Shown here in pieces: positions 17,951 through 33,423 of a stretch of DNA of 64,000 nucleotides. The stretch spans positions 62,001-126,000 of the forward strand of contig CP070829.1 of NCBI GenBank assembly GCA_020344755.1, read 5' to 3'. Origin of the DNA: Gemmatimonadales bacterium (GTDB lineage: Bacteria > Gemmatimonadota > Gemmatimonadetes > Longimicrobiales > Gaopeijiaceae). Below the pieces are notes generated by a model. It was not told the DNA's origin, made no database searches, and was given only the letters and a program-made list of their open reading frames with translations. The translations under genes and the position numbers were made by a program. Position 1 is the first letter of the stretch. The number at the start of each line of letters is the position of its first letter.

Positions 17951-18119
17951 CCTCTCGGAGGCGTTGGAGGTGCATTCCGCCGGACCAAACCGAGGCTCCG
18001 GCACAGCACAATAGAATAGAACGACCTCCGAGCGAATTACAGGTGAGCCAGCCGTGTGAGCCGGCGGGCCGGAGCCGGAAGCAGACCCTGCCCCCCGATC
18101 GAGGGAACCGTCCGCCGTT

Positions 18120-19097
18120 TCAGCCGCCCACCACCGCCTCGGCCCGGATCTCCACCGGCGCGAGGAGGGTGTCGTCGGGGCCGAACTCCCAGACCAGGAC
18201 CCCCTCTTCCTCCCGCTCGGCGTTGTGATCCGTAACCTCTCCGGGGAGGCGGAGCCGGAAGACGATGGCGGTGTTGAACCCCAGGTCCACCCCGGGAATC
18301 TTTCGCTCGACGTCCATGAAGATCTCGTCTCCCTCCACCACGTCCAGGATCAGCGTCTCCAGCTCGCCCACGGAGGTATCGGGGTACCGAGGCCGGACCA
18401 CCCTCGCCGCCTGCTCCGCCGTGGTCCGGGCCATCTCACCGGTCAGGGCCTCCTCGTCGGCCCCCTCGTCCAGGATGCCGGCGTCCACCATCATCCAGAA
18501 GCGGGTACGGAAGGTCCCCGCAATCTGCCCGCGCTCCGCCGGCGCCAGCCGGGGAAAGCGCCGGTCCAGCTGATCGTCGAGGGATTGGACCAGGGCCTCC
18601 ACCAGGATGTCCAGGGCCTGTTCCCAGGTGAAGGTCTCCTCGTACCGGAGGGTTGTGGTGCCGTCGCTGGTGCGGCCCCGGGCGACCCGAACCGTGTTGT
18701 GAAAGCGGACGTCGCCCAGGCGGACGTACCCGACCCGGTCGTCGGCGTGGGCCGGTATCGTTCCATCGATGGCGACAGTCCCCGAGATCTGTGCCCAGGC
18801 GGCCAGATTCGGCACCTCGGTCGTCCTGTAGAAGGTGAAGACGGTGTCTCCGTCGCTCTCCACATGGAATCCGGGGATCCAGCCGTCGGCCTCGGTCAGG
18901 TGGGTGACCGCCAGGAAATCCTGGCGCGCTTCCTGGGAGTCCGGGGCGTCGGTGACCTCCACCCGGACCTCGCGGACGCCGCTGCCGTCCGCGCGCAGGG
19001 TGGTCTCTACGGTGTAGTCGGCGCACGCCGCCAGAGCGGCACAGGCCCCCGCCACCGCCAGGTGCCGGGTCGACGTCGTCAGAATGCGGTTGATCAT
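18120..19097 (-). CDS. lipoprotein of an ECF sigma operon, function unknown
   Basis: This is a 325-residue protein with a lipoprotein signal: a hydrophobic start ending in LAAC, with Cys at about 25. The mature part starts [19 protein letters not shown], a beta-rich pattern, followed by a charged helical middle and further strands. I do not recognise a named family. GGAGG lies 7 nt before the ATG. It starts 13 nt after the anti-sigma factor stop, so it is probably the third gene of the sigma / anti-sigma / lipoprotein operon and may be an envelope-stress output or sensor (inference). Confidence 0.72.
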
Positions 19098-19110
19098 CGT
19101 TCGCCTCCGT

Positions 19111-19902
19111 TCAACTCAGGAGATCCACCAACTCGGCGGTGGGTAGGGTGAGGTCGCGGCGGACCGAAGCCTCGTCGATGGCCTGGAGCAGGTCCGTGGC
19201 CCGGAGGGCCTCCCCGGCGGGGACCCGGTCCAGGAGGCCGTCGACCATGCGACTCATGCGGGACGAGGGCCGGCTCTTGAGGAGCCGGAACCGGGCCTCC
19301 GACACGATCACGCGGTCCGAGGGCACCCGGTCCAGGAGCTCCACCAGCTCCGCCACGGTGATGGTCTCCTGTTGGGAGAGGAGCCGGAGCCAGGACGGTG
19401 CGGAGGAGGCCCCCCGGCTTCCTCCTGCCAGGGTCCGCAGTCCGGCCACCCGTGCCCGCTGCGCCTCGAGGTCCAGCTCGAGCCGGGCCTCCCGCAACCG
19501 GGCCTCCCGGAGCTGGAGTCCGAGGGCGCCGGTGGCGACCAGGAGAATCAGGCTGGCGGCCGCCAGGAGGGGGACCCGGAGGGAGGACCAACCCCGGAGC
19601 CCTGCGGGGCGCCCGGGACGGACCGATTGCGGCTGCGCCTCCCGCGCCGAGGCGGAGGCGTCGGCACCAAGGGCGTCCCGCACCCTGCCGTACATCCCGT
19701 CCACCACGTGGAGCGGTACCCGGGCCTCCAACTCGGCCAGTGAGGGCCCGGCCAGGTGACGCTTCAACTCGAGTTGCCGGCCACACGTCGTGCACGCCTC
19801 GCCGTGTGCCTCCAGGAGGTCCCGGGCAACGTCGGCAAGGGTTCCGTCCACGAGCCGCTCCAACTGGTCTTCGAAGACCCGGCAATCCACCGAATCCATC
19901 AT
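19111..19902 (-). CDS. zinc-finger transmembrane anti-sigma factor
   Basis: This 263-residue membrane protein has a cytoplasmic ZAS-type motif, His33-x3-Cys37-x2-Cys40 (HGEACTTC), followed by helices typical of sigma-binding domains. One transmembrane segment lies at about 109-130 (LLAAASLILLVATGALGLQL). A coiled segment rich in Arg/Glu/Leu comes next (LREARLREARLELDLEAQRA), then an outer domain with two repeats containing LLDRVPS/LLDRVPA. It should hold the adjacent ECF sigma factor inactive until an envelope signal. The start ATGATG overlaps the sigma stop, and GGAGGGGAGGAC precedes it. Confidence 0.82.
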   Translation of the reverse strand: MMDSVDCRVFEDQLERLVDGTLADVARDLLEAHGEACTTCGRQLELKRHLAGPSLAELEARVPLHVVDGMYGRVRDALGADASASAREAQPQSVRPGRPAGLRGWSSLRVPLLAAASLILLVATGALGLQLREARLREARLELDLEAQRARVAGLRTLAGGSRGASSAPSWLRLLSQQETITVAELVELLDRVPSDRVIVSEARFRLLKSRPSSRMSRMVDGLLDRVPAGEALRATDLLQAIDEASVRRDLTLPTAELVDLLS

Positions 19903-20462
19903 GTCCTCCCCTCCAGGGGTCTGAGCCACTCCGCCAGGCGGCGCCGGGCGGTGTGCAGGGTCACACGCAGCGTTCCGTACCGGATCCCCAGCTCCCGGGC
20001 CACCGTCCGCTGATCCTCCTCCTCCACGTCCACCCGAAGGAAGACCTCCTGCTGGGAGGGGCTCAGACCGCGGGCCGCCTCCATCACCCGCTCCCGGAAC
20101 TCCCGGGCCTCCAGGAGGGCGTCGGGGGCATGGGATCCGGGCGCCTCGAGCCGCTGGATCCGCTCCACGGGTCGGGATTCCTGCCGTCTCTCCCACGGGC
20201 GGCGTACGTGGTCCCGGCAGACGTTCCGGTGGATGGTGTGGAGCCACCCCGTGAACGGTCGCTTCGGGTCCCATCGCCCCAGGCTCCGGTAGACTCGAAT
20301 CCACGTTTCCTGGGCCAGGTCCCCGGCGGCGTCCCAGTCGGAGGTGTAGCGAAAGGCGAGGGCCACCAGGCTCCGGGTGAGGCGTCGGACCAGGGCCTCG
20401 AAGGCGCGCTCGTCGCCCTCCTGGGCCGCCAGGGCCAGCGTCCGGAGCTCAGCTTCGTCCAC
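19899..20462 (-). CDS. ECF-family RNA polymerase sigma factor
   Basis: This 187-residue sigma-70-family factor has region 2 (FEALVRRLTRSLVALAFRYT, DLAQETWIRVYRSLGRW, FTGWLHTIHRNVCRDHVRR) and region 4 (LSPSQQEVFLRVDVEEED, ARELGIRYGTLRVTLHTARR). The GTG at 20462 is chosen because an AGGAGG-like sequence lies about 9 nt upstream and region 2 then sits at the N-terminus; longer in-frame extensions are Pro/Gly-rich. It is followed by its anti-sigma factor with a 4-base overlap. A possible ECF-type promoter lies at 20532-20557, which would allow autoregulation. Confidence 0.92.
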   Translation of the reverse strand: MDEAELRTLALAAQEGDERAFEALVRRLTRSLVALAFRYTSDWDAAGDLAQETWIRVYRSLGRWDPKRPFTGWLHTIHRNVCRDHVRRPWERRQESRPVERIQRLEAPGSHAPDALLEAREFRERVMEAARGLSPSQQEVFLRVDVEEEDQRTVARELGIRYGTLRVTLHTARRRLAEWLRPLEGRT

Positions 20463-20531
20463 CGGGATGCCTCCTCCAGGGGGGCAGGGGGTCGGCGCGG
20501 CGCAGCCCGCCGCCGGGGGTCTCTGCGGGGA

Positions 20532-20557
20532 GTACGCGTCTCGGGCCCGAAATGTTA
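20532..20557 (-). promoter_or_regulatory. possible ECF-type promoter (TTAAC-N17-CGTA)
   Basis: On the minus strand TTAAC (20557-20553) is separated by 17 nt from CGTA (20535-20532). This resembles the AAC...CGTA layout of many ECF promoters and lies about 70 nt before the sigma gene. It suggests autoregulation; the match is short. Confidence 0.33.
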
Positions 20558-20644
20558 ATGCCCAGTGGGTGACCGCGCGTGGGGGGCGGCTCCCAGGCCT
20601 GGGCGGCAGCCCGATGGTAGGTCCCCAACGGCACACACGACGGC

Positions 20645-20678
20645 AAAACGCCCCCCACGGCCGGAGCCGCAGGGGGCG
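20645..20678 (-). terminator. Rho-independent terminator after the LVIVD gene
   Basis: CGCCCCC (20649-20655) pairs with GGGGGCG (20672-20678), with an inner CGGC/GCCG extension. On the minus strand TTTT (20648-20645) follows. It lies about 45 nt after the stop of the LVIVD-repeat gene. Confidence 0.75.
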
Positions 20679-20721
20679 CACCTCCACCGGGAACGCCGGC
20701 GGGGAGGCGGGGGCGGGACCG

Positions 20722-22548
20722 CTACATCCCGGCCATCCCCCGCAGCACTCCGGCGAGGGCCGAGAGTCGTGCGGCGTCTCCCCCCTGCAGTCCGGCCTCC
20801 ACCTGGGCGGCGTCGGCCTCCAGCGTGGCGGCCATTCCCTGCAGCTCCGCGGCGGAGGCGGTGTCCGTCTCCGCCCGTTCCAGGAGGGCGTCCAGCGCCT
20901 CGGCACGCTCCGCCAGGATCCTCTTGGCCCGGATCATCTGATCCAGGTACGCCCGGGCCACGGGAGCCGCGTCGGGCCACGACAGGTGGGGCTGCATCTG
21001 GGCGTTGAACTCGTCGAGCGTCACCAACTCGGCCGCGGCGATCTCCGCCTCGGAGAGGTGCTCGGAGGGGGTGAGGCGGAAGACGTCGATCCCCCGGGAG
21101 ATCTCGGCGCCGTAGATGTGGCCGTTGTACCAGTAGGTGGACCAGAATCCTCCGGTGTAGAGCTCCGTCTCGCTCAGCGGGCCTCGGTCGAAGTAGGCGA
21201 TCTCGAACGGGTTCGCGGGATCGGTGAAGTCCATGACGGACACGCCGCCCTGGTACCAGGCCTGGACCTTGATGTCCCGCCCCGGGACGGGGACGAGAGA
21301 GCCGTTGTGGGCCACACAGTTCTCCGTCTCGCTCTGGGCCACCGGGAGCTTGTAGTAGCCCGCCAGGGTCATCTCGTCGCCCTGTCGCCGGAAGATGGCG
21401 TTGGCGCCCCAGGTGGCCGGGTCGGTGCCCCGGCACCGCGGGGCGGAGCCGCCCCCCCACTCGTCGGTAAAGACCAGCTTGGAGCCGTCGTTGGAGAAGG
21501 TGGCGGAGTGCCAGTAGGCGAAGTTCGGATCGAAGACCTCGTCGATCCGGACGGGATTCGCGGGGTCGGAGATGTCCAGCAGGATCCCGTTTCCGGAACA
21601 CGCCCCCGCCGCCAGGCCCAGAGCCGGGTAGGCCGTGATGTCGTGGCACTGGTGGGTGCGCCGGGTGCGCTGGGCACCCTCGTATGCCGCGCCACCGGCG
21701 TGGAGGGCGTCGATCCGCCCGGTCTCCGGGTCCGCGAAGATCCGGGGCATGTTCACGATCTCAGCCGCCCCCGGGTTGGCCAGCGGCACCCGGACCACCT
21801 CGATGCGGAAGAGGGAGGTGTTGGGGTCCTCGTCGGGCTCCGCTCCGGAGCAGCCGGCCATTTCCTCCCCGGGGCGGGGGGAGTTGGTGCCCTGGATGTA
21901 GACGTAGACGTGCTCGTCGTCGTCCGGGTCCTCCACCAGGGTGTGGGTGTGGGAGCCGCGGCAGGACTGGATGGCCGCGACCTGCCTCGGACTGTCCAGG
22001 TCCGAGATGTCGAAGATGCGGATCCCCCGGAGGCGCTCACCGCTCACCGCCTCCTCCACGCCGCCCACGCCGCAGTCCAACCGGCCCCGGGTCTCCTGGG
22101 CCGACATCACCAGGAGGTTGCCGTAGACCGATACGTCCCCCTGGCCCCCGGGGCACACCACCGAGACCCGGAGTGTCGGGCTCGCGGGGTCCGAGATGTC
22201 GTAGACCTGGAACCCGTTGTAGTTACCCTGGAACATGTACGGCCCCTGGAACGCCAGATCGGTGTTGCTGAAGCGGCCGTCACCGGGGGTCTCGGGATTG
22301 AAGAAGCCCTCCGCCCGCTGCAGGGAGGCCAGGTGCTCCATTCCGGAGACGGCGGACTCCGCGTCGTGCCATCCGGCGGCGAGACCGATGCGTGGGTCGT
22401 TGGGATCCCAGTCCAGGCGGGGCGGCGTCGCGCGGGCCTCGGCCCCGGCGGCCTGGGCGCCCACGGCGGATCCGTCCTGGGCGAGTGCCACGGCGGGCGC
22501 GGTGAGGAGGAGGGCCGCGAGGGCGAGGGGGAGGGTCGGTCGGGTCAT
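20722..22548 (-). CDS. secreted LVIVD-repeat (beta-propeller-like) protein
   Basis: This is a 608-residue protein with a clear signal peptide (LPLALAALLLTAPAVALAQ). LVIVD-type repeats follow, with units of the form VYDISDPASP, IFDISDLDSPRQVA, LLDISDPANPVRIDEV and VMDFTDPANPFEIAYF. His- and Asp-rich segments (SHTHTLVEDPDDDEH) lie between repeats. The last ~130 residues are helical and Ala-rich. Such proteins form extracellular beta-propellers of unknown substrate. The start is ATG 22548, 17 nt after the DUF305 gene stop, so the two genes are co-transcribed. Confidence 0.85.
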   Translation of the reverse strand: MTRPTLPLALAALLLTAPAVALAQDGSAVGAQAAGAEARATPPRLDWDPNDPRIGLAAGWHDAESAVSGMEHLASLQRAEGFFNPETPGDGRFSNTDLAFQGPYMFQGNYNGFQVYDISDPASPTLRVSVVCPGGQGDVSVYGNLLVMSAQETRGRLDCGVGGVEEAVSGERLRGIRIFDISDLDSPRQVAAIQSCRGSHTHTLVEDPDDDEHVYVYIQGTNSPRPGEEMAGCSGAEPDEDPNTSLFRIEVVRVPLANPGAAEIVNMPRIFADPETGRIDALHAGGAAYEGAQRTRRTHQCHDITAYPALGLAAGACSGNGILLDISDPANPVRIDEVFDPNFAYWHSATFSNDGSKLVFTDEWGGGSAPRCRGTDPATWGANAIFRRQGDEMTLAGYYKLPVAQSETENCVAHNGSLVPVPGRDIKVQAWYQGGVSVMDFTDPANPFEIAYFDRGPLSETELYTGGFWSTYWYNGHIYGAEISRGIDVFRLTPSEHLSEAEIAAAELVTLDEFNAQMQPHLSWPDAAPVARAYLDQMIRAKRILAERAEALDALLERAETDTASAAELQGMAATLEADAAQVEAGLQGGDAARLSALAGVLRGMAGM

Positions 22549-22565
22549 GTTCTGCCTCGGTGGGG

Positions 22566-23267
22566 TTACGGTCGGAGAAAAGCCAGGAGGGAACGCATCC
22601 GCGCGATCTCCGCGCGCTGGTCGGCGTCCACGTGGGACGCGAACTGGAAGAGCTCGGATTCCTGCCCCGCGCCGTCGGTGGAGAAGAGGGCATCCACCAT
22701 CACGATGGCGCCTTCGTGGTGCTGGATCATGAACTCCAGGAAGAGCCGGTCGAACTCGGCGCCCCTGGCGGACTGCAGCTGCTCCATCTGCTCGGGAGTG
22801 AGCATTCCCGGCATCATGGGAAGATCCCCGGAGCCGGCGTGCTCCATCCCGTGATGGGCGGCGGCGGCCGGGACCTCCTGCCCCCGGTCCCGAAGCCACC
22901 GCTCCATCAGCGCGATCTCGTCCCGCTGGGAGATCTCCATGCGGAGGGCCATCTGGTGCACGCCCCGATGGGCCGCCCGGTCCGGGACCAGGGCGGTCAT
23001 CTGGAGGGCCTGGGCGTGGTGCGGGATCATGCCCTGCATGAAGGCCACGTCCGCCTCGGTGTGGGCCACGCCTCCCAGGGCCTCCAGGTCCGTTCCCGCC
23101 ACCACCCGGGTGGCCTCACCCGGCGCACCGGGCTGAACGATCCTGGCGCCGGCCGTGGAGCCGGTGTCGCCGCCAGGCGGGAAGGGGGCCGGCGAGGTGG
23201 CGCACCCGAGGACCGGAAGACAGACCAGGGCGGTGGCGAGGGGGGAGATCGAGGTGAGGAGCTTCAT
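22566..23267 (-). CDS. DUF305 lipoprotein
   Basis: This 233-residue lipoprotein (signal ending LPVLGC, Cys about 19) contains the DUF305 repeat: DVAFMQGMIPHHAQALQMTALV and later FDRLFLEFMIQHHEGAIVMVDALF. The paired HH motifs lie in helices, and Met/His-rich segments (HHGMEHAGSGDLPMMPGM) lie between them. The His/Met content suggests metal, perhaps copper, binding (inference). Start ATG 23267. It is the first gene of a two-gene unit with the LVIVD protein. Confidence 0.88.
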   Translation of the reverse strand: MKLLTSISPLATALVCLPVLGCATSPAPFPPGGDTGSTAGARIVQPGAPGEATRVVAGTDLEALGGVAHTEADVAFMQGMIPHHAQALQMTALVPDRAAHRGVHQMALRMEISQRDEIALMERWLRDRGQEVPAAAAHHGMEHAGSGDLPMMPGMLTPEQMEQLQSARGAEFDRLFLEFMIQHHEGAIVMVDALFSTDGAGQESELFQFASHVDADQRAEIARMRSLLAFLRP

Positions 23268-23335
23268 CGCAGCAGAGGGTCGAGTTCGCGAGCAGGTACC
23301 GTCGGCGTTCCCGGAGGGTTCCCGGCCTTCGTCCT

Positions 23336-23351
23336 CCCCCGGTACCGGGGG
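23336..23351. repeat. 16-bp perfect palindrome
   Basis: CCCCCGGTACCGGGGG lies in the divergent region between the DUF305 gene (minus) and tRNA-Leu (plus). It could be an operator or a chance G+C palindrome. Confidence 0.3.
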
Positions 23352-23392
23352 GGGACGGTTCACCGCGGCGCGAATCGCACGAAGCCGGAAGA

Positions 23393-23421
23393 TTGGATGG
23401 GCCAGCGGAAAGGCTTAGACT
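23393..23421 (+). promoter_or_regulatory. sigma-70-type promoter of tRNA-Leu
   Basis: TTGGAT (23393-23398), a 17-nt spacer and TAGACT (23416-23421) end 10 nt before the tRNA. Spacing and position are right for a housekeeping promoter. Confidence 0.65.
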
Positions 23422-23431
23422 AGACGTCCGC

Positions 23432-23515
23432 GCCGGGGTGGCGGAATTGGCAGACGCAGGCGACTCAAAATCGCCCGGGAGTGATCCCTTGAGGGTTCGA
23501 GTCCCTCCCTCGGCA
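23432..23515 (+). tRNA. tRNA-Leu (anticodon CAA)
   Basis: This is an 84-nt class II tRNA. The acceptor arm GCCGGGG pairs with CCTCGGC (one G-U), with discriminator A at 23515 and no encoded CCA. The anticodon arm GGCGA-CTCAAAA-TCGCC gives anticodon CAA, reading UUG. A long variable arm follows. The T arm is GAGGG-TTCGAGT-CCCTC. A remnant of a tyrosine integrase lies just downstream, so this gene has probably been an integration target. Confidence 0.96.
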
Positions 23516-23525
23516 TTCCTCTAAA

Positions 23526-23812
23526 TCATTGGCTGGCAAAGAAAAGCGGCCCTTCCAATCTTCGGGTGGGCCGCTTCTTTTTCGACACAGATCGACTCAC
23601 GGTGCCGCGATTGTGCCGCGCATCGGCTCAGGCTGGACCGGCCGCAGCGGATCGCGAACGGCGATGGAGGGCCGCCCACTGCACCACTCCTTCCGCCCGA
23701 GCGACTGCATCCCCGATGGCGTAGCGCCTCCACAAACCGCTCCAGATCTTCTGAATGGAAGAATCCCTTTCGAGTGTTCCGGACTTCGATGCGCGGCGGG
23801 GCCGTCTTGCCC
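23526..23812 (-). pseudogene. decayed tyrosine recombinase (integrase) remnant
   Basis: Read on the minus strand, 23812 downwards encodes PRIEVRNTRKGFFHSEDLE, which resembles the start of the catalytic domain of phage/island integrases (usually ...VRKGFFE..EF..L). The next frame then gives WRRYAIGDAV, resembling the C-terminal YRRYAI-type end with the helix after it. This is followed by an in-frame TGA (23628-23630) and ARHNRGTVSRSVSKKKRPTRR, a typical integrase tail, ending at the TGA at 23526. The central catalytic region with Arg...HxxR...Tyr is missing, and the two parts meet with a frame change. It points to an old integration at tRNA-Leu. The resemblance is from memory of the family and needs an alignment. 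Confidence 0.55.
23544..23582. terminator. bidirectional Rho-independent terminator
   Basis: AAGCGGCCC (23544-23552) pairs perfectly with GGGCCGCTT (23568-23576). It is followed on the plus strand by CTTTTT and on the minus strand by CTTTTCTTT. It should end the tRNA-Leu transcript and would also have terminated the integrase. Confidence 0.85.
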
Positions 23813-26061
23813 CCGCCGGTACCCAGCCAGCACTCTGCCGACCGGCTCGGTCCCATAACCCCATCAGAGCGATTCCATTGAGCGCCTCTTCCTGCCGGTG
23901 CGGTCCCTTCATTCTGCTCGCCTGCGCCATGGGTCTGTTCGCCGCCGGCGGGGTGACGGCGCAGGAGCGCGCGTCGGCCGCCAGCGGAGCGGCCGTGGGC
24001 GATATCCGGATCGACGGCCGGCTGGACGAGGCCGACTGGGCCGCGGCCACACCCCTGGGTAGCCTGACGATGGTCGAGCCGGTGGAGGGGGAGGCAGTCC
24101 GTTTCCCGACCGAGGTGCGCGTGCTCGCGGACGCCGGGAACCTGTACGTGGGCGTGCGGGCCCATGATCCGGATCCGTCCGGGATCGTGAGCTTTTCGAA
24201 GGCGCGGGACAGCCAGCTCCGCTCCGAGGATCACGTCAAGATCCTCATCGACCCCTTCATGGACGGGCAGTCGGGGTACGTCTTCGCGGTCAACCCGGGG
24301 GGAGCGCGCTACGACGCCCTGGTGGCGGATCAGGGGCTGGGCGAGAACCAGAGCTGGGACGCGGCCTGGGAGGCGTCGACCACGCGCGACGCGGAGGGGT
24401 GGACGGTCGAGATCCGCATCCCGGTGCAGAGTATCAGCTTCGAAGCGGGCCGCGACCGGTGGGGGTTCAACGTCGAGCGCCGTGTACAGCGTGTCCTGGA
24501 GGTGAGCCGCTGGGCCAGTCCGGAGCGTGCAGCGCCCCTGACGCAGAGCGACCGCGCCGGGGTGCTGACCGGGATCCCCGCCTTCCAGACCGGGATGGGG
24601 CTGACCGTCCGTCCGTCGATTTCCGGTGGCGCGCAGAAGGACGGCCCGGACGTGGGCTGGGACAACCGGTTCGAGCCGAGCCTGGACGTCTTTCAGCGGA
24701 TCGGCTCGAACGTCACGGCCGTGGCGACGCTCAATACCGACTTTGCGGAGACGGAGGTCGACACCCGCCGCACGAACTTGACGCGCTTTCCCCTCTTCTT
24801 CGAGGAGAAGCGGTCGTTCTTCCTCGACGGAGCCGACATCTTCGACTTCGGCGCGGGGATGACCACCTTCCACAGCCGGGACCTGGTCCCCTTCTTCACC
24901 CGTCGGATCGGCCTCGTCGAGGGGCAGCAGGTGCCGATCCGGGCGGGCGGGAAGGTGAGCGGCCGGGCCGGGCGGACCAGCTTCGGTGGGCTCGTGACCG
25001 GGACCGGCTCCGTGGACGGGCTGGTGGACGACACCGAGATGGGCGCGTTTCGCCTGAAGCAGAACGTGCTGGAACGGTCCAGCATCGGGCTCCTCGGCAC
25101 CTTCGGGGATCCCCTCGGCCGAGCGGACAGCTGGATGATCGGTGGCGACGCCATCTACAACACGTCGGGCTTCCTCGGAGACCGGAATCTGATCGTCGGC
25201 GTCTGGGGCCTGGCCGCCGGCAGGGAGGGGCTGGAGGGGGACCGCTCCGCCGTCGGCGGCATCATCGACTATCCCAACGACGTCTGGGACCTCTGGCTCT
25301 CGTGGAAGCGCCTCGGCGAATCCTTCGATCCGTCGCTCGGATTCGTTCCGCGCCGGGGGGTCCACCTGGCGAACCTCGGGGTCAACTACCGCTGGTGGTC
25401 ACCCACCTCGAGCGTGCGGAACCTCTACTTCGAACTGGTGCCGATCCTCGCCTGGGATCTGGACGGGAACCTGGAGAGCTACCGGATCTTCACGGCGCCG
25501 ATCAACGTCCGCTTCGAGAGCGGGGACCGGTTCGAGTTCAACGTCCAGCCGCAGGGAGAGCGCCTTCCCGAAGCCTTCGAGATCGCGGACGGGGTGGTGA
25601 TTCCCATGGGGACGTACGATTGGGTGCGGTATCGCGCCGAAATGGACTTCGCCGCCAAGCGCACGGTCAGCGGCAGGGTCTCCTGGTGGTTCGGCCCCTT
25701 CTACGACGGCGACGTCAGCGAACTCTCCGTCCGGCTGGCGGTCAATCCGTCGGACCTGATCACCTTCGAGCTGACGGGCACCCGCAACGAGGGGCGCGTT
25801 TCGGCCGGCAGGATCCTGCAGGAGGTGCTGGGCTCACGCGTCCGTGTGAACTTCTCGCCCGACCTGCAGGTCAGCACCTTCGCTCAGTACGAGCGCGAGT
25901 CGGACGAGTTCGGTATCAACGCCCGATTGCGCTGGACCTTCGATCCGCTCGGAGACCTCTTCGTCATCTACAACCACAACACCATGGACGACGAGCTCCT
26001 GGGATGGCGGACGCAGGCCGCCCGCCTCTCCCTCAAGGTGCAGTACGCATTCCGCTATTGA
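23755..26061 (+). CDS. DUF5916 outer-membrane protein with CBM9-like domain
   Basis: This protein has up to 768 residues. After a hydrophobic export signal (FILLACAMGLFAAGGVTAQ) comes a CBM9-like domain (IRIDGRLDEADWAAATPL, NLYVGVRAHDPDP, VKILIDPFMDGQSGYVFAVNPGG). A DUF5916 part follows (WDAAWEASTTRD, GWTVEIRIPVQS, FPLFFEEKRSFFLDGADIFDFG). A long C-terminal beta-barrel ends in VQYAFRY, with the terminal aromatic usual for outer-membrane proteins. The start is unclear: the frame opens at 23755, but the natural start is probably an ATG at 23929 or a TTG near 23878. No Shine-Dalgarno is seen, and the upstream end overlaps the integrase remnant. Function is unknown; glycan or peptide binding at the cell surface is possible. 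Confidence 0.82.
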   Translation: MEESLSSVPDFDARRGRLAPAGTQPALCRPARSHNPIRAIPLSASSCRCGPFILLACAMGLFAAGGVTAQERASAASGAAVGDIRIDGRLDEADWAAATPLGSLTMVEPVEGEAVRFPTEVRVLADAGNLYVGVRAHDPDPSGIVSFSKARDSQLRSEDHVKILIDPFMDGQSGYVFAVNPGGARYDALVADQGLGENQSWDAAWEASTTRDAEGWTVEIRIPVQSISFEAGRDRWGFNVERRVQRVLEVSRWASPERAAPLTQSDRAGVLTGIPAFQTGMGLTVRPSISGGAQKDGPDVGWDNRFEPSLDVFQRIGSNVTAVATLNTDFAETEVDTRRTNLTRFPLFFEEKRSFFLDGADIFDFGAGMTTFHSRDLVPFFTRRIGLVEGQQVPIRAGGKVSGRAGRTSFGGLVTGTGSVDGLVDDTEMGAFRLKQNVLERSSIGLLGTFGDPLGRADSWMIGGDAIYNTSGFLGDRNLIVGVWGLAAGREGLEGDRSAVGGIIDYPNDVWDLWLSWKRLGESFDPSLGFVPRRGVHLANLGVNYRWWSPTSSVRNLYFELVPILAWDLDGNLESYRIFTAPINVRFESGDRFEFNVQPQGERLPEAFEIADGVVIPMGTYDWVRYRAEMDFAAKRTVSGRVSWWFGPFYDGDVSELSVRLAVNPSDLITFELTGTRNEGRVSAGRILQEVLGSRVRVNFSPDLQVSTFAQYERESDEFGINARLRWTFDPLGDLFVIYNHNTMDDELLGWRTQAARLSLKVQYAFRY

Positions 26062-26130
26062 GTGACTTGCCGCGGAGCTCGGCCTGCCGTATCGAAGTCG
26101 CACGACCGACGCACCCTTCCGGAGGTTCCC

Positions 26131-26664
26131 ATGTCCATCGCCCACTCGCGCTTCATCCTCACCATTACGGCCCTCGCCCTCACGGCTCCTCTCTCGGCCC
26201 AGTCGGCGACGCCCGATTTCCGGGAAGAGTGGCGCGGCCAGTTCGAGTCCTCGGCCCGGAAAATCGTCATGCTGGCCGAGGCGATGCCTGAGGACGCTTA
26301 CGGCTGGCGGCCCATGGAGGGCGTGGCGTCGGTGGTCGAGGTGTACATGCACATCGCCCGCTACAACTACATGTATCCGGACCAGAACATGGGGGTGGCG
26401 GCCCCGCGTCCCTACGCCACCCTGGAGGAGGATTCCGTCACCAAGGAGGAGGCGGTGGAGATCCTCTCCACGTCACTCGATCACGTGCGCGCGGTCGTCG
26501 ACGGGATGTCGGACGAGGAGCTGCAGGGGCGGACGCGACTCTACGGGCGTGACGTGGCCAACTGGGCGGTGCTCTTCCAGCTCGTCACGCACATGAACGA
26601 GCATCTGGGCCAGTCGATCGCCTACGCGCGCACGAACGGCGTGGTCCCGCCCTGGAGCCGGTAG
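26131..26664 (+). CDS. DinB-like (DfsB/YfiT) four-helix protein, secreted
   Basis: This 177-residue protein has a signal peptide (FILTITALALTAPLSAQ) and a DinB-type four-helix bundle. Its features are EDAYGWRPMEGVASVVEVYMHIARYNY with a His, the second helix region VEILSTSLDHVRAVV, and VTHMNEHLGQSIAYARTNG carrying the C-terminal His pair usual for metal-binding DinB proteins. GGAGG at 26121-26125 fixes the ATG at 26131. It follows the DUF5916 gene by 69 nt on the same strand. Members are often metal-dependent thiol or small-molecule transferases; no substrate can be assigned. Confidence 0.82.
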   Translation: MSIAHSRFILTITALALTAPLSAQSATPDFREEWRGQFESSARKIVMLAEAMPEDAYGWRPMEGVASVVEVYMHIARYNYMYPDQNMGVAAPRPYATLEEDSVTKEEAVEILSTSLDHVRAVVDGMSDEELQGRTRLYGRDVANWAVLFQLVTHMNEHLGQSIAYARTNGVVPPWSR

Positions 26665-26690
26665 GCACCCGTGGCCGGGGCTCCGGCACC

Positions 26691-28190
26691 CTAGCGCGCA
26701 GGGGAACAGACCCGCTCGCTCGTCTCAAGGACGACGACCCGGTCCACCAGGTCGGTTGCACCTTCCGGCAGGCGGAGCGTGACCCCGTGGTCGTCCTGCC
26801 CGAATCCCAGTGTCTCGCCCGTGGCGAGCATCTGCGCAGTAGTGATGCAGCGCTCCAGAGGCGGCAGGCTCAGGATTGCATCGGGCCAGTCCAGGACGTG
26901 GACGTACACGCGGTTCCCCCGCTGCGTGGTGACCCCCCAGGAGCGGGGCGCGAAGGGCCCGCCGCGGGTCCCGTAAATGGACTCGCCGTGGTCCGCCAGC
27001 CACTCCCCCATGGCCTCGAGGCGCTCCACGGCCTCGGGCTGGAGGGTCCCGTCGGGGCGCGGCCCCACATTCAGGAGCAGGTTGGCATCCGCCCCCGCGG
27101 CGCGCACCAGGTACCGGATCAGCTCCGGGACCGACTTCCACCGGCGGTCCGTGACGTTGAATCCCCAGGAGCCGTTCATGGTGAGCGAGGTTTCCAGCGG
27201 GAGATCGCTGATCTCCGCGGTGTTCCACCCCGCCGAGTTGTGTCCGGGCAGGTCCTGCTCGAAGGTCTGGCCGTCCTCCCCCGGCAGGGGGTCCTGGTGG
27301 TGGTTCGGGATGATGAGGGCCTGGGGTTGAAGCTCGTGGATCAGGCGATACGTCCGGTCGAGCCGCCAGTCGGCCTCCGGCTTGTCCCACATGCCGTCGA
27401 ACCAGATGCCGCCGAGAGGCCCGTAGCGGGTCAGCAGCTCGGTGAGCTGCGCGTCCATGAAGTCCAGGTAGGCGCTCCACTCCCCAGAGGCCGGGCGGTC
27501 CGAGGCGTGCCCGGTTCTTCCTCGCGGAAAGTAGTCCGGATGGCGCCAGTCCAACTGGGAGTAGTAGAAGAAGAGCTGCAGCCCCGCGGCGCGGCAGGCC
27601 TCGGCAAGCTCCGCCAGTGGGTCTCGTCCGTACCGGGCCCAGTCCACGATGTCGTAGTCCGTGGCGTCCGTGTCGAACATGGAGAAGCCGTCGTGGTGCC
27701 GGGCTGTGATGGTGATGTATTTCATGCCGGCGCGCTTGGCGACGTCGACCCAGGCTCGGGCATCGAAGTTCACGGGGTCGAAGTCCGAGGCCAGCCACTC
27801 GTACTCGGCCACGTTCATGGGGCGGGTCTCCATGACCCACTCGCCGGAGCCCAGTTGGCTGTAGACGCCCCAATGGATGAACATCCCGAAGCGGTCACTC
27901 CGGTAGCGTTCCCGGGCGTCCAGGCGGACCTGCGGTACCGTGTCGGAGGACTGGGCGGGAAGGCGCGCGGGGTCGGCACCCGCCGCCAGGATTAGAGCCA
28001 CCGCCATCCCGATTCTGCCCCAGGGAGGGCGACGGCCCTCCGCCTGGGATCCGTCGGGGCGATCGGTCCCCCCGTGGGAGCCGCGCCCCCAATGGGAGCC
28101 GCGCCCCAGAACGTCGGCACGGATGAGTCCAGACCCGGGCCCGCCTCCAGACCCGCGCCCGAGCCCGGGTCCGCGCCCGTGAGCGGTCAC
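26691..28190 (-). CDS. GH29 alpha-L-fucosidase, exported
   Basis: This glycoside hydrolase family 29 enzyme removes alpha-L-fucose from glycans by a retaining mechanism. Motifs: SDRFGMFIHWGVYSQLG, AKRAGMKYITITARHHDGFSMFD, FFYYSQLDWRHPDY, and GGIWFDGMW with the nucleophile Asp; the C-terminal domain is beta-rich. The signal peptide core is MAVALILAAGADP. The frame opens at a GTG (28190) that overlaps the DUF502 stop as GTGA, giving 499 residues with an odd ~60-residue Gly/Arg/Pro-rich leader. The ATG at 28007 (438 residues) gives a normal signal peptide and may be the real start. Confidence 0.9.
   Translation of the reverse strand: MTAHGRGPGLGRGSGGGPGSGLIRADVLGRGSHWGRGSHGGTDRPDGSQAEGRRPPWGRIGMAVALILAAGADPARLPAQSSDTVPQVRLDARERYRSDRFGMFIHWGVYSQLGSGEWVMETRPMNVAEYEWLASDFDPVNFDARAWVDVAKRAGMKYITITARHHDGFSMFDTDATDYDIVDWARYGRDPLAELAEACRAAGLQLFFYYSQLDWRHPDYFPRGRTGHASDRPASGEWSAYLDFMDAQLTELLTRYGPLGGIWFDGMWDKPEADWRLDRTYRLIHELQPQALIIPNHHQDPLPGEDGQTFEQDLPGHNSAGWNTAEISDLPLETSLTMNGSWGFNVTDRRWKSVPELIRYLVRAAGADANLLLNVGPRPDGTLQPEAVERLEAMGEWLADHGESIYGTRGGPFAPRSWGVTTQRGNRVYVHVLDWPDAILSLPPLERCITTAQMLATGETLGFGQDDHGVTLRLPEGATDLVDRVVVLETSERVCSPAR
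28075..28107. repeat. two identical 15-bp units, 18-bp period
   Basis: TGGGAGCCGCGCCCC occurs at 28075-28089 and 28093-28107 within the low-complexity leader of the fucosidase frame. It continues a G+C-rich tract up to 28180. Confidence 0.6.
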
Positions 28191-28858
28191 GATGCACTAC
28201 CGTCGTGAGGCCCGACCTCCGGTCGATCGGCCGGTGGCGTGGCTTCCGCCGAGAGGAGCCCGGCGTCGTGGATCTCTTCACCCAACGGCACCGCCCCCAT
28301 GGAGAGGACGAAGGTGAAGGCCTCCTCGGGCGGCACGGGGAGCTCGTACACCTTTTCCTTCGGCACCACCAGGAGGAAGCCGGACATGGGATTCGGCGCC
28401 GTGGGAAGGAAGACGGTCACCGCGTCCGAGCCGACCAGGTCGTGGGCGTCCGCCGGAGCAGGGCCGGTAAGGAAGGCCACGGCCCACGTGCCGGGGGTGG
28501 GATACTCGCAGAGCACCGCCTTCTTGAAGGCCTCCGCGTCCTGTCCCACCAGCGACTCCACGATGCGCCGGCTCCCACGGTAGACCGGTCGGGCCACCGG
28601 GACGTGGTCCACGATCCACTCCCAGATCCGGGTCATGCGTCGGCCCAGGGCCCGTTCGGTCAGGAAGCCGGTAACCAGGAGCAGCAGGAGGAGGGCCACC
28701 AATCCCAGCCCGGGGAAGGGGCGCCCCAGGAGCGACTCGAAATACCCCCCCAGGATGCGGTCCAGCCTCGTGAAGAGCCACCAGAGGGCCCACATGGTGG
28801 CACTCACCGGGACGACGAGTGCGATGCCTTCCAGGAGAAACCGTCGGAGTCGTTTCAT
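28187..28858 (-). CDS. DUF502 membrane protein
   Basis: This 223-residue protein is of the DUF502 family. Two hydrophobic segments lie near the N-terminus (FLLEGIALVVPVSATMWALWW and GLGLVALLLLLLVTGFLTE), followed by the family pattern of I..VP..RPVYRGSRRIVESL, FKKAVLCEYPTPGTWAVAFLT and the cytosolic part TVFLPTAPNPMSGFLLVVP. The ATG at 28858 gives the usual KRLRRFLLEGIALVVP start. The function is unknown. Its stop overlaps the GTG of the fucosidase frame. Confidence 0.88.
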   Translation of the reverse strand: MKRLRRFLLEGIALVVPVSATMWALWWLFTRLDRILGGYFESLLGRPFPGLGLVALLLLLLVTGFLTERALGRRMTRIWEWIVDHVPVARPVYRGSRRIVESLVGQDAEAFKKAVLCEYPTPGTWAVAFLTGPAPADAHDLVGSDAVTVFLPTAPNPMSGFLLVVPKEKVYELPVPPEEAFTFVLSMGAVPLGEEIHDAGLLSAEATPPADRPEVGPHDGSAS

Positions 28859-29002
28859 GGGGAGCCGGGACGAGGGGATCAGTGCGGGGCCCGCCCTAGG
28901 GAATAGGGAGTCCAAAGTGGATGCGGCAAGCCCCGCCGTGGCCACCCGTGACGCACTCCCCCCGCGGAGGCCGTGGCGGACCGGTTCGGGGGTTCCCCCG
29001 AC

Positions 29003-29031
29003 TTGGGGGAAAGCCTTGTGTTCTCTATACT
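29003..29031 (+). promoter_or_regulatory. sigma-70-like promoter of citrate synthase gene
   Basis: TTGGGG (29003-29008), a 17-nt spacer and TATACT (29026-29031) lie about 70 nt before the ATG at 29104. The -10 is good; the -35 is weak. Confidence 0.5.
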
Positions 29032-29103
29032 ATCGGGGTTGAGCAGACCGACTCGAACGAGACCGTGATCGCCGTGGTACGGCGTCCATCTTCAGGAGGG
29101 GAA

Positions 29104-30405
29104 ATGGCGGAGAACGCCTCGAACACCCTGACCATCAGGGACAACCGCACCGGGAAGGAGTACGAGGTCGACGTCCTGGAAGGGGATACCATCCGGGCCA
29201 TGGATCTGAGGCAGATCAAGGTCCGGGACGAGGACTTCGGGATGATGTCCTTCGATCCCGCCTACACGAACACGGCCTCCACGAGCAGCACCGTCACCTT
29301 CATCGACGGTGGAAAGGGGATCCTCAGGTATCGCGGTTACCCCATCGAACAGCTGGCCGAGCGCTCCAACTTCCTGGAGGTCGCCTATCTGATCCTCAAG
29401 GGAGAGCTCCCCACCGGTGACGAGTTGGACGAGTTCGTCCACCACGTGACGTATCACACCTACGTCCACGAGAACGTCGTCCACCTGTTCGACTCGTTCC
29501 GGTACGACGCCCACGCCATGGGGATGATGATCTCGGCGGTGTCGGCCCTCTCGACCTTCTATCCGGAGGCGAAGGACGTGCGGGACCCCTCCAACCGCTG
29601 GATCCAGATGGTGCGGCTGGTGGCGAAGATGCCGACGCTGGCGGCCTTCGCCTATCGGCACCACCGGGGGCTCCCGAAGGTGTATCCGGAGAACGAGTTG
29701 TCGTACACGGCCAACTTCCTGAACATGCTCTTCCGGATCGGGGTGAAGGAGTACAGGCCCAACCCGGTCCTGGAGCGGGCGTTGGACGTGCTCTTCATCC
29801 TGCACGCGGACCACGAGCAAAACTGCTCGGCCACCACCATGCGGGTGATCGGCTCCGCCGAGGCGGATCCATACTGCTCCCTCGCCGGCGCCATGGGTGC
29901 CTTGTACGGGCCGCTCCACGGCGGGGCCAACGAGGCCGTGCTGCGCATGCTGCACCGTATCGGGGACGTGAAGAACGTTCCGGCCTTCATCGAGGGAGTG
30001 AAGAACCGGGAGGAGCGTTTGATGGGGTTCGGCCACCGGGTCTACAAGGCGTACGATCCGCGGGCGAGCATCATCAAGCGGACGGCGGACGAGGTCTTCG
30101 AGGTCACGGGTCGCAACCCGCTCCTGGATATCGCCCTGGAACTGGAGAAGATCGCCCTCAACGAGGACTTCTTCGTCTCCAGGAACCTCTACCCCAACGT
30201 CGACTTCTACTCGGGCCTGATCTACCAGGCTCTGGGTTTCCCCGTGGAGATGTTCCCGGTGCTGTTCGCCATTCCCAGGACGGTGGGGTGGCTGGCCCAG
30301 TGGGAGGAGATGCTCGAGGACAAGGAGCAGAAGATCGCCCGGCCGAGGCAGGTCTATGTCGGCGAGGACGCCCGCGACTTCGTCTCCGTGGAGGACCGGG
30401 GCTGA
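29104..30405 (+). CDS. gltA: citrate synthase (bacterial type II)
   Basis: This 433-residue enzyme condenses acetyl-CoA and oxaloacetate. The N-terminal beta domain (LTIRDNRTGKEYEVDVLEGDTI) is typical of hexameric, often NADH-regulated GltA-type enzymes. Catalytic residues are present: His in YGPLHGGANEAVL, His in MGFGHRVYKAYDPR and Asp in NVDFYSGLIY. CAGGAGG just upstream supports the ATG at 29104. A second, different citrate synthase lies at 37896-39185. The transcript probably ends at the hairpin at 30439-30465. Confidence 0.95.
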   Translation: MAENASNTLTIRDNRTGKEYEVDVLEGDTIRAMDLRQIKVRDEDFGMMSFDPAYTNTASTSSTVTFIDGGKGILRYRGYPIEQLAERSNFLEVAYLILKGELPTGDELDEFVHHVTYHTYVHENVVHLFDSFRYDAHAMGMMISAVSALSTFYPEAKDVRDPSNRWIQMVRLVAKMPTLAAFAYRHHRGLPKVYPENELSYTANFLNMLFRIGVKEYRPNPVLERALDVLFILHADHEQNCSATTMRVIGSAEADPYCSLAGAMGALYGPLHGGANEAVLRMLHRIGDVKNVPAFIEGVKNREERLMGFGHRVYKAYDPRASIIKRTADEVFEVTGRNPLLDIALELEKIALNEDFFVSRNLYPNVDFYSGLIYQALGFPVEMFPVLFAIPRTVGWLAQWEEMLEDKEQKIARPRQVYVGEDARDFVSVEDRG

Positions 30406-30438
30406 ATCCGGGCGGAGCCGGCCGAGGCGAAGACGGGC

Positions 30439-30465
30439 GGGGACCCTCCGACCTGGGGGGTCCCC
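30439..30465 (+). terminator. probable terminator after citrate synthase
   Basis: GGGGACCC (30439-30446) pairs with GGGTCCCC (30458-30465), followed by a weak T-rich run (GTTCTGATT). Confidence 0.55.
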
Positions 30466-30532
30466 GTTCTGATTCGAGGCGTCCAGGCCCCTTCTCCTGC
30501 CCTCCCGAGCCCCCCGCACCCTTGAGGGACCT

Positions 30533-31435
30533 TTGACACAGATTCTCTGTCTCGACACCCACCACGACGGGGTCCCCGGAGCCATCGCCGTCTACGTAGT
30601 GCTGGGGCCCGAGCCGACCCTGGTGGACCCCGGGCCCGCCACGGTGCGCCCCCGGGTGCTGGAAAGCCTCCGGGCGCAAGGGATTCCCCCCGGCGACATC
30701 CGGCATATCTGTGTCACGCATGTCCACCTGGATCATGCGGGCTCCGCCGGTGCGTGGGTCGCGGAGTACCCGGATATTGCGGTGCACGTCCACGAGGAGG
30801 CCGCCCTCCACCTGGTGGACCCACGCCGGCTGGTTGTCTCCACCCGTCGCACCTTCGGGGATGCCCACGACCGCCTCTGGGGCAGGGTGGTGCCCGTCCC
30901 GGCCCATGCCATTCGTGCCGTGAGGCCGGGGGAAGTGGGCCCGTTCCGCTGGCTCCGGGCCCTACACACGCCGGGACACATCGAGCAGCACCTGGCCTAC
31001 CTCCACGAAGTCTCCGGGACGCTGTTCTCCGGCGACAGCATGGGGATCCTCCTGGGTCGGGAGGCGCCGGTACATCCGCCCACCCCGCCTCCCACCCTGG
31101 ACCTGGCGGCCTGGCTCGGGACCCTTCGGGAGATCGAAGCGGTAGCTCCGGAACAGGTCGGTGCGACGCACTTCGGGCTGCACAGGGAGGTGAAGGCCCG
31201 GGCCGCCGAACTGCGGACAGCCCTCCTGGACCTGGCATCTCGCGCGGAGGGCGCAATGGAGCGGGGGAGGGAGGAGGAGGATGCCGAGGCCTTCCAGGAG
31301 GAGACGATCGAGCGCCTCCGGAGGCACCGGCCGAACGACGAGGTCGAGCGGTACTTCACCGCCTTCTCCGCCGCCAACGACTACCGGGGAATGGTGAGAT
31401 ATCTCCGGAGGAATCCGGATTGGAGCGGAGCGTGA
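30533..31435 (+). CDS. MBL-fold metallo-hydrolase
   Basis: This is a 300-residue metallo-beta-lactamase-fold protein. Its dinuclear metal site is shown by THVHLDHAGS (HxHxDH), a further His in LHTPGHIEQHLAYL, and LFSGDSMGIL. The C-terminal ~80 residues are helical. It is cytoplasmic (no signal). The likely start is TTG at 30533, as no ATG or GTG suits. It overlaps the M1 peptidase start by one base (TGATG). Proteins of this length are often glyoxalase II-like or acyl/thioester hydrolases; the substrate is unknown. Confidence 0.88.
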   Translation: MTQILCLDTHHDGVPGAIAVYVVLGPEPTLVDPGPATVRPRVLESLRAQGIPPGDIRHICVTHVHLDHAGSAGAWVAEYPDIAVHVHEEAALHLVDPRRLVVSTRRTFGDAHDRLWGRVVPVPAHAIRAVRPGEVGPFRWLRALHTPGHIEQHLAYLHEVSGTLFSGDSMGILLGREAPVHPPTPPPTLDLAAWLGTLREIEAVAPEQVGATHFGLHREVKARAAELRTALLDLASRAEGAMERGREEEDAEAFQEETIERLRRHRPNDEVERYFTAFSAANDYRGMVRYLRRNPDWSGA

Positions 31436-33423
31436 TGCAGTCAGCGCAGACCCCGGCCTCCCGGAGAGGCGTACCCGGCCCGACCGCCGCACGGATCGCA
31501 CTGGGGACGCTCCTTGCGGCGACGCCCCTCGCAGGGCAGGCGGGGCGACCCCTGCCTGGTCCGGTTGTGCCGCCCCCGGCGTTCCGGGCAGCGCTGGAGG
31601 AGGGGACCCGTTCCGAAGACGGTCGTCCTGGTCCGAACTACTGGCAGAACCACGCCCAGTACCGCATCGAGGCCTCCCTGGACCCGCTGGAGGCCCGGGT
31701 CGAAGGGTCGGTTTCGATCCGCTACGAGAACCGGAGCCCCGACGCCCTGGACCGGCTGCTCCTGCACCTCCATCAGAACCTCCATGCCACCGGGGTGGCT
31801 CGCCACGTAGCCCAGGAGGTGACCGGGGGCGTGGAGTTGCGGGCCGTGCGCCTGGGCGGAGAGGAGGTCCGGCCCCTGGCCGGCGACGGCCCCCCGAGCC
31901 CCGGGTACCGTGTCGAGGGCACCCTCATGACCCTCTCCCTCGACGAGCCGATCCCTCCCGGAGGGTCGGTGGAGGTGGAGGTGGAATGGAGCGGGGTCCT
32001 TCCGCAGAATGGCGCCGGACGCATGGGCCACTCGGAGCGGGAGATGTTCTTCGTGGCCTACTGGTATCCCCGCGTCGCGGTCTACGACGACCTGCGGGGG
32101 TGGGATGCCCAGCCCTACCTGGGTGGGGCCGAGTTCTACGACGGCTTCGGGGACTACGAGGTCGCCCTCACGGTGCCTTCGGGGTGGACCGTCATGGCCA
32201 CCGGGGAACTCCTCAACCCCCAGGAGGTCTTCGCAGCGCGAACGCTCGAGCGGCTTGCGGCCGCTGCGGAGGCCGACACGGTCATCACGGTGGCCACCGT
32301 GGATGAGCTGCAGGCCGGCGGCGTGACGGTAGTGGGGACAGCGTCGACCCTGACGTACCGCTTCCAGGGAGAGGGGGTGAGGGACTTCACCTGGACTGCC
32401 TCCGAGGCCCAGCAGTGGGACGCCACCAGCGCCCGGGTTCCGGACCGGGACGGGGACGGCGTGGCGGACCGGGTGGCCATCCACGCTTTCTGGCGCCCCC
32501 AACGGGCCCCTCTCTGGAGGGACCAGGCCCGGTACGCCAAACACGCCATCGAGCATCACTCCCGCTTCACCGGCTTCCCCTACCCCTGGCCGCACATGAC
32601 CTCGGTGGAGGGCGCCGACATCATTGGCGGGGGAATGGAATTCCCCATGCTCACCCTCATCGGTCCGTACCTGGGCCGCTCTTCCCAGGACCTCTACAAC
32701 GTCACCTCCCACGAGCTGGGGCACATGTGGATCCCCATGGTGGTGGGGACGAACGAGAAGCGGTATGCCTGGATGGATGAGGGGCCCACCACCTTCCTGG
32801 AGAACCAGAGCCGGTACGACTACTGGCCGGGAACGGATGCCCACGCGTCGGAGCGGGAGACCTATCTGGACGCGGCGCGGCGCGAGGTGGAAGAGCCCCT
32901 CATGCGCCACGGCGACTACTACCAGGCGGGGGGGTACGGAGTGGCGTCGTATGCCAAGCCGAGCACGCTCCTGGTGACCCTCCGCACCCTACTCGGTCCG
33001 GAGGCCTTCCGGAGGACCTACCGCGACTTCGTCCAGGACTGGGCTTTCAAGCACCCCACACCCTGGGACCTGTTCAACGCCTTCGAGCGCGAGGCGGGCC
33101 TGGATCTCGACTGGTTCTGGCAATCCTTCTTCTACGAAACCTGGACCGTGGATCTGGCTGTGGCGGAGGTGGCGGCTGGTGCCGACGACACCGTGATCCG
33201 GATCAGGGACCTTGGCTCGGCACCGGTGCCTGTTCAGGTGCGGGTCGAGACGGATTCCGGGACGGTCGTGGACCGGGAGATTGCCGTGGTGAGCTGGCTC
33301 TCCGGGGAGCGGGATGTGGAGATCCGGATCCCGCTGGCGTCCGGGGAGGTGATCCGGGTGGTGTTGGACCCCGGGGAGGTGCTTCCCGACGTGGATCGGT
33401 CGAACAACACCTGGGAGCGATAG
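31435..33423 (+). CDS. secreted M1-family metallopeptidase
   Basis: This 662-residue gluzincin aminopeptidase-type protein has a signal peptide (IALGTLLAATPLAGQ) and an N-terminal beta domain (NYWQNHAQYRIEASLD). The catalytic domain carries HELGHMW, with the third zinc ligand Glu of WMDEGPTTFLE 18-19 residues later. A GGGMEFPMLT segment corresponds to the family's GAMEN-like loop. A C-terminal beta-sandwich closes the protein. The ATG at 31435 overlaps the MBL gene stop, so the two are co-translated. It probably acts on peptides outside the cytoplasm; specificity cannot be deduced. Confidence 0.9.
   Translation: MQSAQTPASRRGVPGPTAARIALGTLLAATPLAGQAGRPLPGPVVPPPAFRAALEEGTRSEDGRPGPNYWQNHAQYRIEASLDPLEARVEGSVSIRYENRSPDALDRLLLHLHQNLHATGVARHVAQEVTGGVELRAVRLGGEEVRPLAGDGPPSPGYRVEGTLMTLSLDEPIPPGGSVEVEVEWSGVLPQNGAGRMGHSEREMFFVAYWYPRVAVYDDLRGWDAQPYLGGAEFYDGFGDYEVALTVPSGWTVMATGELLNPQEVFAARTLERLAAAAEADTVITVATVDELQAGGVTVVGTASTLTYRFQGEGVRDFTWTASEAQQWDATSARVPDRDGDGVADRVAIHAFWRPQRAPLWRDQARYAKHAIEHHSRFTGFPYPWPHMTSVEGADIIGGGMEFPMLTLIGPYLGRSSQDLYNVTSHELGHMWIPMVVGTNEKRYAWMDEGPTTFLENQSRYDYWPGTDAHASERETYLDAARREVEEPLMRHGDYYQAGGYGVASYAKPSTLLVTLRTLLGPEAFRRTYRDFVQDWAFKHPTPWDLFNAFEREAGLDLDWFWQSFFYETWTVDLAVAEVAAGADDTVIRIRDLGSAPVPVQVRVETDSGTVVDREIAVVSWLSGERDVEIRIPLASGEVIRVVLDPGEVLPDVDRSNNTWER

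Follow-up and report, generated by a model that had tools for sequence, protein, structure and literature searches.

Fragments of a tyrosine recombinase gene beside tRNA-Leu(CAA) in a Gemmatimonadales genome probably mark a lost prophage or island

RESULTS

An integrase remnant next to tRNA-Leu(CAA)

We analyzed a 64,000-nucleotide stretch (referred to as the window; G000:C1:62001-126000) of the single-contig, 4.1-Mb genome of a Gemmatimonadales bacterium, in which a tRNA-Leu(CAA) gene, the sole tRNA that ARAGORN returned from the window, is followed on the minus strand by what reads as the remnant of a tyrosine recombinase (integrase) gene. Between the two lie a terminator-like hairpin and a short tandem motif, and beyond the remnant come genes for a DUF5916 protein and a DinB-family protein (Table 1). 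An initial annotation had proposed a remnant recombinase on this strand beside the tRNA, within a region given as 23526-26664. The remnant is borne out by pairwise protein and DNA matches, shuffled controls, the motif, and a counterpart in a related genome (G036), but it is narrower, occupying about 23602-23802; a start at 23526 was rejected because 23544-23583 is the hairpin.

TABLE 1 Features of the tRNA-Leu(CAA) locus, in window coordinates
Feature	Position	Strand	Basis
Intact tRNA-Leu(CAA); attachment site presumably restored in its 3' part	23432-23515	+	ARAGORN; exact 57-bp repeat in G036 spanning the 3' part of its tRNA-Leu(CAA)
Terminator-like hairpin (G+C-rich stem of 9 bp followed by a T-run), between tRNA and remnant	23544-23583		Fold
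CGGCACAATCGCGGCAC, tandem CGGCAC with an 11-bp period; candidate integrase arm-type site	23602-23618	-	Rarity; tRNA linkage
Integrase C-terminal piece, RRYAIGDAVARAEGVVQWAALH; stop at 23628-23630	23628-23735 (about)	-	tblastn, 54-56%; blastn, 71% over 69 bp to the G036 integrase gene
Catalytic-domain-start piece, (A)PPRIEVRNTRKGFFHSEDLERFVEAL	23722-23802 (about)	-	tblastn, 60% over 25 amino acids, and blastn, 75% over 59 bp, to the G036 integrase
DUF5916/CBM9-like protein, neighbor	23878-26061	+	Pfam PF19313, PF06452
DinB-family protein, neighbor	26131-26664	+	Pfam PF12867/PF05163

When a 36-amino-acid minus-strand query was compared with the 146 genomes of the same order, seven genomes were matched, the query's own included. 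Three of the six others (G036, G137, and G052) have integrases at the match; the remaining three matches (L066, L069, and L070) were dropped, because reading their frames gave nothing integrase-like. At 23722-23796, the minus strand encodes PRIEVRNTRKGFFHSEDLERFVEAL, which over 25 amino acids is 60% identical to the G036 integrase and 52% identical to each of those from G137 and G052. Alignment with integrases at tRNA-Leu, the check that the initial annotation had named, finds its match in G036, where the integrase also lies at tRNA-Leu(CAA). Next to this piece, at 23655-23735, the same strand resembles the integrase C terminus around RRYAI (54 to 56% identity over 24 to 27 amino acids, to the G110 tRNA-Cys and G052 proteins).

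The same two blocks align at the DNA level with the G036 integrase gene, with 75% identity over 59 bp for the start of the catalytic domain (blastn E value, 4e-7) and 71% over 69 bp for the C terminus (3e-6); these E values were obtained with lenient scoring against a subject of 12 kb. The blocks lie 457 bp apart in the G036 gene and 10 bp apart in the window, and therefore the loss of the core and the frame change that had been proposed are real. The two pieces are in different frames and overlap by 14 bp at the joint, where the loss of about 450 bp from within the gene has fused them. The initial annotation had described them as the beginning and the end of the gene. The end is indeed the C terminus; the supposed beginning is where the catalytic domain starts, and no true N-terminal half of an integrase was found within the window.

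The deleted stretch includes TGWR, HDLRR, and GHKT, the boxes of the catalytic Arg, His-x-x-Arg, and His, which are invariant in an alignment of four integrase proteins. The remnant thus lacks the full R...H-x-x-R...H...Y catalytic set and keeps only the RYAI motif, whose Tyr is invariant in the same alignment and would be the nucleophile. The remnant is a nonworking pseudogene of the PF00589 family. Its stop codon is convergent with, and near, the intact plus-strand tRNA-Leu, a layout that is the same in G036.

Other searches returned no closer source. A DNA query covering 23516-23935 found, among 58 genomes and apart from the window itself, a best match with an E value of 0.001 over 21 bp. 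A whole integrase searched against the window's own genome at an E value of 10 gave nothing, in a weak test that also missed the remnant itself. As a candidate source of the remnant, an integrase elsewhere in the same genome was rejected: the three PF00589 matches are at loci without a tRNA, and among the matches listed none of these loci resembled the remnant convincingly. Two of the three are full-length proteins, which we take to be XerD and XerC. The third (L004, C1:1396662-1396742) is a separate C-terminal fragment in a 235-amino-acid frame at a locus without a tRNA, and its score of 20.8 bits is below the cutoff.

Related integrases at tRNA genes

In G036, a genome of the same order, the integrase is convergent to tRNA-Leu(CAA), in the same orientation as in the window. 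The element there (L077, G036:C10) is about 8 kb long, has its far end marked by an exact 57-bp repeat of the tRNA 3' part, and carries the tandem motif near each end; a hairpin is found at the matching position, between the motif and the tRNA. It holds an open reading frame (ORF) of 1,015 amino acids that matches the tape-measure family PF20155, together with a 516-amino-acid ORF that appears terminase-like by eye but has no Pfam match. The Pfam family Phage_integrase (PF00589) is matched by the G137 and G052 proteins and by both frames of the G036 gene. Thus, the window shares with the G036 element its tRNA, its orientation, a homologous integrase, the tandem repeat, and the hairpin position. 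Unlike the window, the G036 element has both copies of the attachment site (att) and long phage-like ORFs, and its integrase, also frame-broken, has kept the stretches with the catalytic boxes. The break lies near position 12300 of L077, though both att copies persist.

Homologous integrases accompanied by a CGGCACAAT-type tandem repeat beside a tRNA, as in the window, also occur in other Gemmatimonadetes: at tRNA-Lys in G137 (JACQVF010000078.1, L101) and at tRNA-Ser (JAQBXY010000013.1, L111) and tRNA-Cys (JAQBXY010000018.1, L097) in G110. These differ from the window in their tRNA targets and in having kept the catalytic boxes in their frames; in the tRNA-Cys case, moreover, integrase and tRNA are not convergent.

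A search with the integrase alignment found 36 database loci. In 26 of them, the integrase match is followed downstream, within 302 bp, by a tRNA, which is convergent in 23; L104, L105, and L123, where the tRNA is on the integrase's strand, were left out of the convergent count (the tRNA-SeC of L104 is doubtful). Ten of these tRNAs are tRNA-Leu, four of them with the CAA anticodon. The set includes four query records (L097, L098, L101, and L111), without which a tRNA is downstream at 24 of 32 loci and convergent at 21 of 32. Islander (PMC4383910) maps tyrosine-recombinase islands and prophages in tRNA genes, and PMC11271474 mentions a prophage region and tRNA counts. With such islands and prophages the window has in common the tRNA target, the convergent integrase, and the restored tRNA; it differs in its broken integrase and in that no displaced tRNA fragment was found.

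A tandem motif between the integrase and the tRNA

The motif CGGCACAATCGCGGCAC sits between the integrase stop and the tRNA, and its second half lacks the AAT that relatives have. The window holds the single exact copy in its genome. Allowing two free bases, the pattern occurs at 13 places in 10 of the 146 genomes, compared with none for the reversed control, and 9 of these 13 adjoin a tRNA or a fragment resembling a tRNA 3' end. Six are within 100 bp of a complete tRNA 3' end (the window, G137 Lys, G110 Ser, G110 Cys, G086 Leu[TAA], and G036 Leu[CAA]), and homologous integrases are found at four of the five such places outside the window. Three further places (the distal end of the G036 element, G128, and G131) are 161 to 229 bp from tRNA-3'-end-like sequence. 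No motif with fewer than two mismatches was found within 250 bp downstream of the other scanned tRNA-Leu loci.

The letters of the repeat vary among integrase loci (GGCACAAT, GGGACAAT, GTGACATT, and others). In the first 150 bp downstream of the integrase, a tandem 7-mer repeated every 11 or 12 bp is present at 18 of 35 testable loci, compared with 47 of 1,192 control pieces of the same loci (L098, with less than 150 bp downstream, was excluded), and at 16 of 32 loci when the query records are removed. By analogy with lambda-type integrases, on which this reading leans, the tandem motif is a putative arm-type site that would be bound by the integrase.

Three sites with the motif or a variant of it are recorded here in their own right. 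At L063 (G001:C1:134100-144184), a version with two mismatches lies 88 bp downstream of tRNA-Leu(TAA) (4001-4084). L084 (G017:C75) carries exact copies at 710 and 2045, 1.3 kb apart and in opposite orientation, and the piece examined is without a tRNA or related integrase. At L136 (G086:C62:92000-101000, 5159-5470), tRNA-Leu(TAA) is followed at about 65 bp by the tandem repeat and by an 8-amino-acid match to the integrase C terminus, IEKLARLH (7 of 8 residues); no integrase gene was found at L136, and the locus may be another scar of this type.

For the hairpin on the tRNA side of the motif, the fold of 23516-23600 has an energy of -27.7 kcal/mol (z score, -3.2). A simple terminator scan, with a loop limit of 8, did not pick up the hairpin.

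Origin of the remnant

Taken together, these observations lead us to read the remnant, with a probability of about 0.9, as the nonfunctional, decayed attachment-side end, roughly 200 bp long, of a lost tRNA-Leu prophage or island. Several results weigh against this reading. The matched integrase pieces are short, at about 25 amino acids each. The three minus-strand frames of the remnant, read from the 445 bp that follow the tRNA, have no Pfam match, PF00589 included, and no integrase match in PHROGs, where one family of unknown function appeared at an E value of 0.22 only. For the G052 query, the margin over shuffled sequence is thin, with a real score of 31.2 and a best shuffle of 30.8 (0.4 bits). 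Four of the 13 motif places, two of which pair on one contig, are without a tRNA or tRNA-like fragment in the piece examined. The distal att copy (attR) was not found in the window, and the extent of the element therefore cannot be drawn. Finally, the congeners compared also lack the stretch that separates aconitase from the tRNA (18.0-23.4 kb), and therefore variation at the locus is not solely tRNA driven.

The short pieces, the silent profile searches, and the one close shuffle would also fit a chance resemblance, in which an intergenic stretch happens to mimic two pieces of an integrase. The initial annotation had itself named a lack of integrase similarity by profile as a point that would count against a recombinase, and such a lack is what we found; because the pieces are only about 25 amino acids long, however, it is outweighed by the pairwise evidence. 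We consider chance very improbable. The two pieces have the correct order, strand, and distance from the correct tRNA, they are matched at the DNA level as well, and an independent motif lies between them and the tRNA. Of 2,000 dinucleotide shuffles of 23628-23830, none scored as high as the real sequence against either of the two integrases used, and for the G137 query the margin is wide (30.8, compared with 26.2 for the best shuffle).

The interval between tRNA-Leu and citrate synthase

Genes for DUF5916, DinB, fucosidase, and DUF502 proteins (23.9-28.9 kb) occupy the interval from tRNA-Leu to citrate synthase. The DUF5916 gene most likely starts at TTG 23878, as judged from the N termini of the G017 and G048 relatives; this start would give a signal peptide, recognized by eye, as in the G017 relative. 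The initial annotation had offered DUF5916 and DinB as cargo, and a fuller version of that idea is that all four genes arrived with the element as an old island and that its distal att has since decayed. In its favor, the interval differs in G001, G002, and G032, as described below, and two of the genes have an uneven distribution. DUF5916 is patchy: its best relatives in 37 other genomes are in G048 (56%, another family) and G017 (55%, another genus), while its congener matches are at 30 to 38% among the matches listed. No fucosidase was found in 18 other genomes at an E value of 1e-60.

Other evidence points the other way, and we regard surviving cargo as unlikely. The four proteins have no Pfam match to a mobile-element family. 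The G+C contents at third codon positions of the DUF5916 (0.90), DinB (0.91), and DUF502 (0.86) genes are ordinary, near 0.9 like that of citrate synthase (0.92; metallo-beta-lactamase-fold gene, 0.83). DinB has relatives in the congeners G004 (72%) and G001 (67%), where none of the flanking sequence examined aligns with the rest of the window. The window has no second arm motif above chance, and the sequence upstream of the tRNA also varies. The direct repeat of the tRNA 3' end that the initial annotation had looked to downstream is likewise missing: in 23516-31500, the best score was 13, compared with a control mean of 13.9, and 175 of 200 controls reached 13. Elsewhere in the window, the tRNA core scores 17 (31.5-64 kb) and 15 (1-23.4 kb), in stretches longer than the 8-kb controls, which themselves reached 19. 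In the whole genome, at an E value of 0.001, the sole match to the tRNA 3' end was the tRNA itself (14 of 21 first-look candidates were scored). DUF5916 and DinB as cargo are thus not supported.

Two of these genes are also found in other settings. DUF5916 has 12 matches in its own genome, and the family is therefore multicopy. DUF502 was found in 6 of 18 other genomes, two of them congeners; as a fixed neighbor of citrate synthase it was rejected, no citrate synthase being present in the 1.0 kb (G005) and 5.5 kb (G004) upstream.

We compared the locus with that of related genomes at a cutoff of at least 75 bits. Aconitase, tRNA-Leu(CAA), citrate synthase, and the metallo-beta-lactamase-fold gene are collinear in G001 and G002, and the first three are collinear in G032. 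Between tRNA-Leu and citrate synthase, G001 has one phosphodiesterase-family gene, G002 has other ORFs, and in G032 the opposite strand carries a distant relative of DUF5916. The interval is accessory, and no firm link connects it to the element. The expectation that relatives would differ at this locus thus held for the interval, but the difference extends to the region upstream of the tRNA. That region forms another accessory stretch, this one 5' to the tRNA: in the window (18000-23400), aconitase and tRNA-Leu are separated by LVIVD and DUF305 genes, whereas in G001 the two are adjacent.

In a further congener, G003, a displaced second copy of the tRNA-Leu(CAA) 3' end lies on another contig (L135, G003:C199, near 9270) with a GTGCC-type direct repeat nearby. 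This copy suggests repeated use of tRNA-Leu(CAA) for attachment within the genus. At an E value of 0.01, the G003 pieces examined yielded no related integrase. On the other contig of G003 (L052, 3622-4686), the complete tRNA is followed by a frame with an HTH_21 domain (PF13276), presumably of the kind associated with IS3-type transposases.

DISCUSSION

The old island that the initial annotation thought possible survives in part. The orientation of the remnant, the arm-type repeat, and the use of the same tRNA in G036 point to an element that was once here; the proposed cargo is not supported. We envision that, at the locus flanked by aconitase and citrate synthase, the tyrosine recombinase of a prophage or small island drove its insertion into the 3' part of tRNA-Leu(CAA). 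On arrival, the element would have rebuilt the tRNA and set the integrase gene convergent to it, the two being separated by a terminator hairpin and a tandem arm-type site; the hairpin, on this account, probably came with the element, as its counterpart in G036 would suggest. The element would afterwards have been lost, presumably by deletion, leaving behind the arm-type site, the integrase C terminus with the region of the catalytic Tyr, and a fragment of the catalytic-domain start, with the DUF5916 upstream region following from about 23802.

This scar is ordinary in kind and secure in identity, and it leaves knowledge of how such elements work unchanged. It is one that a family profile search alone would dismiss; it was secured by a relative at the same tRNA and by a 17-bp motif, which offers a cheap means to seek other lost tRNA islands in related genomes. 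The odds seem to us roughly even that tandem CGGCACAATnnCGGCAC is an arm-type signature of this integrase family, specific to the lineage and longer lived than the integrase gene itself, and therefore marks fossil tRNA scars missed by gene and profile searches, including those in the window and at tRNA-Leu(TAA) in G086. If so, the segment from aconitase through tRNA-Leu(CAA) to citrate synthase would have been remodeled by repeated insertion and loss at the tRNA.

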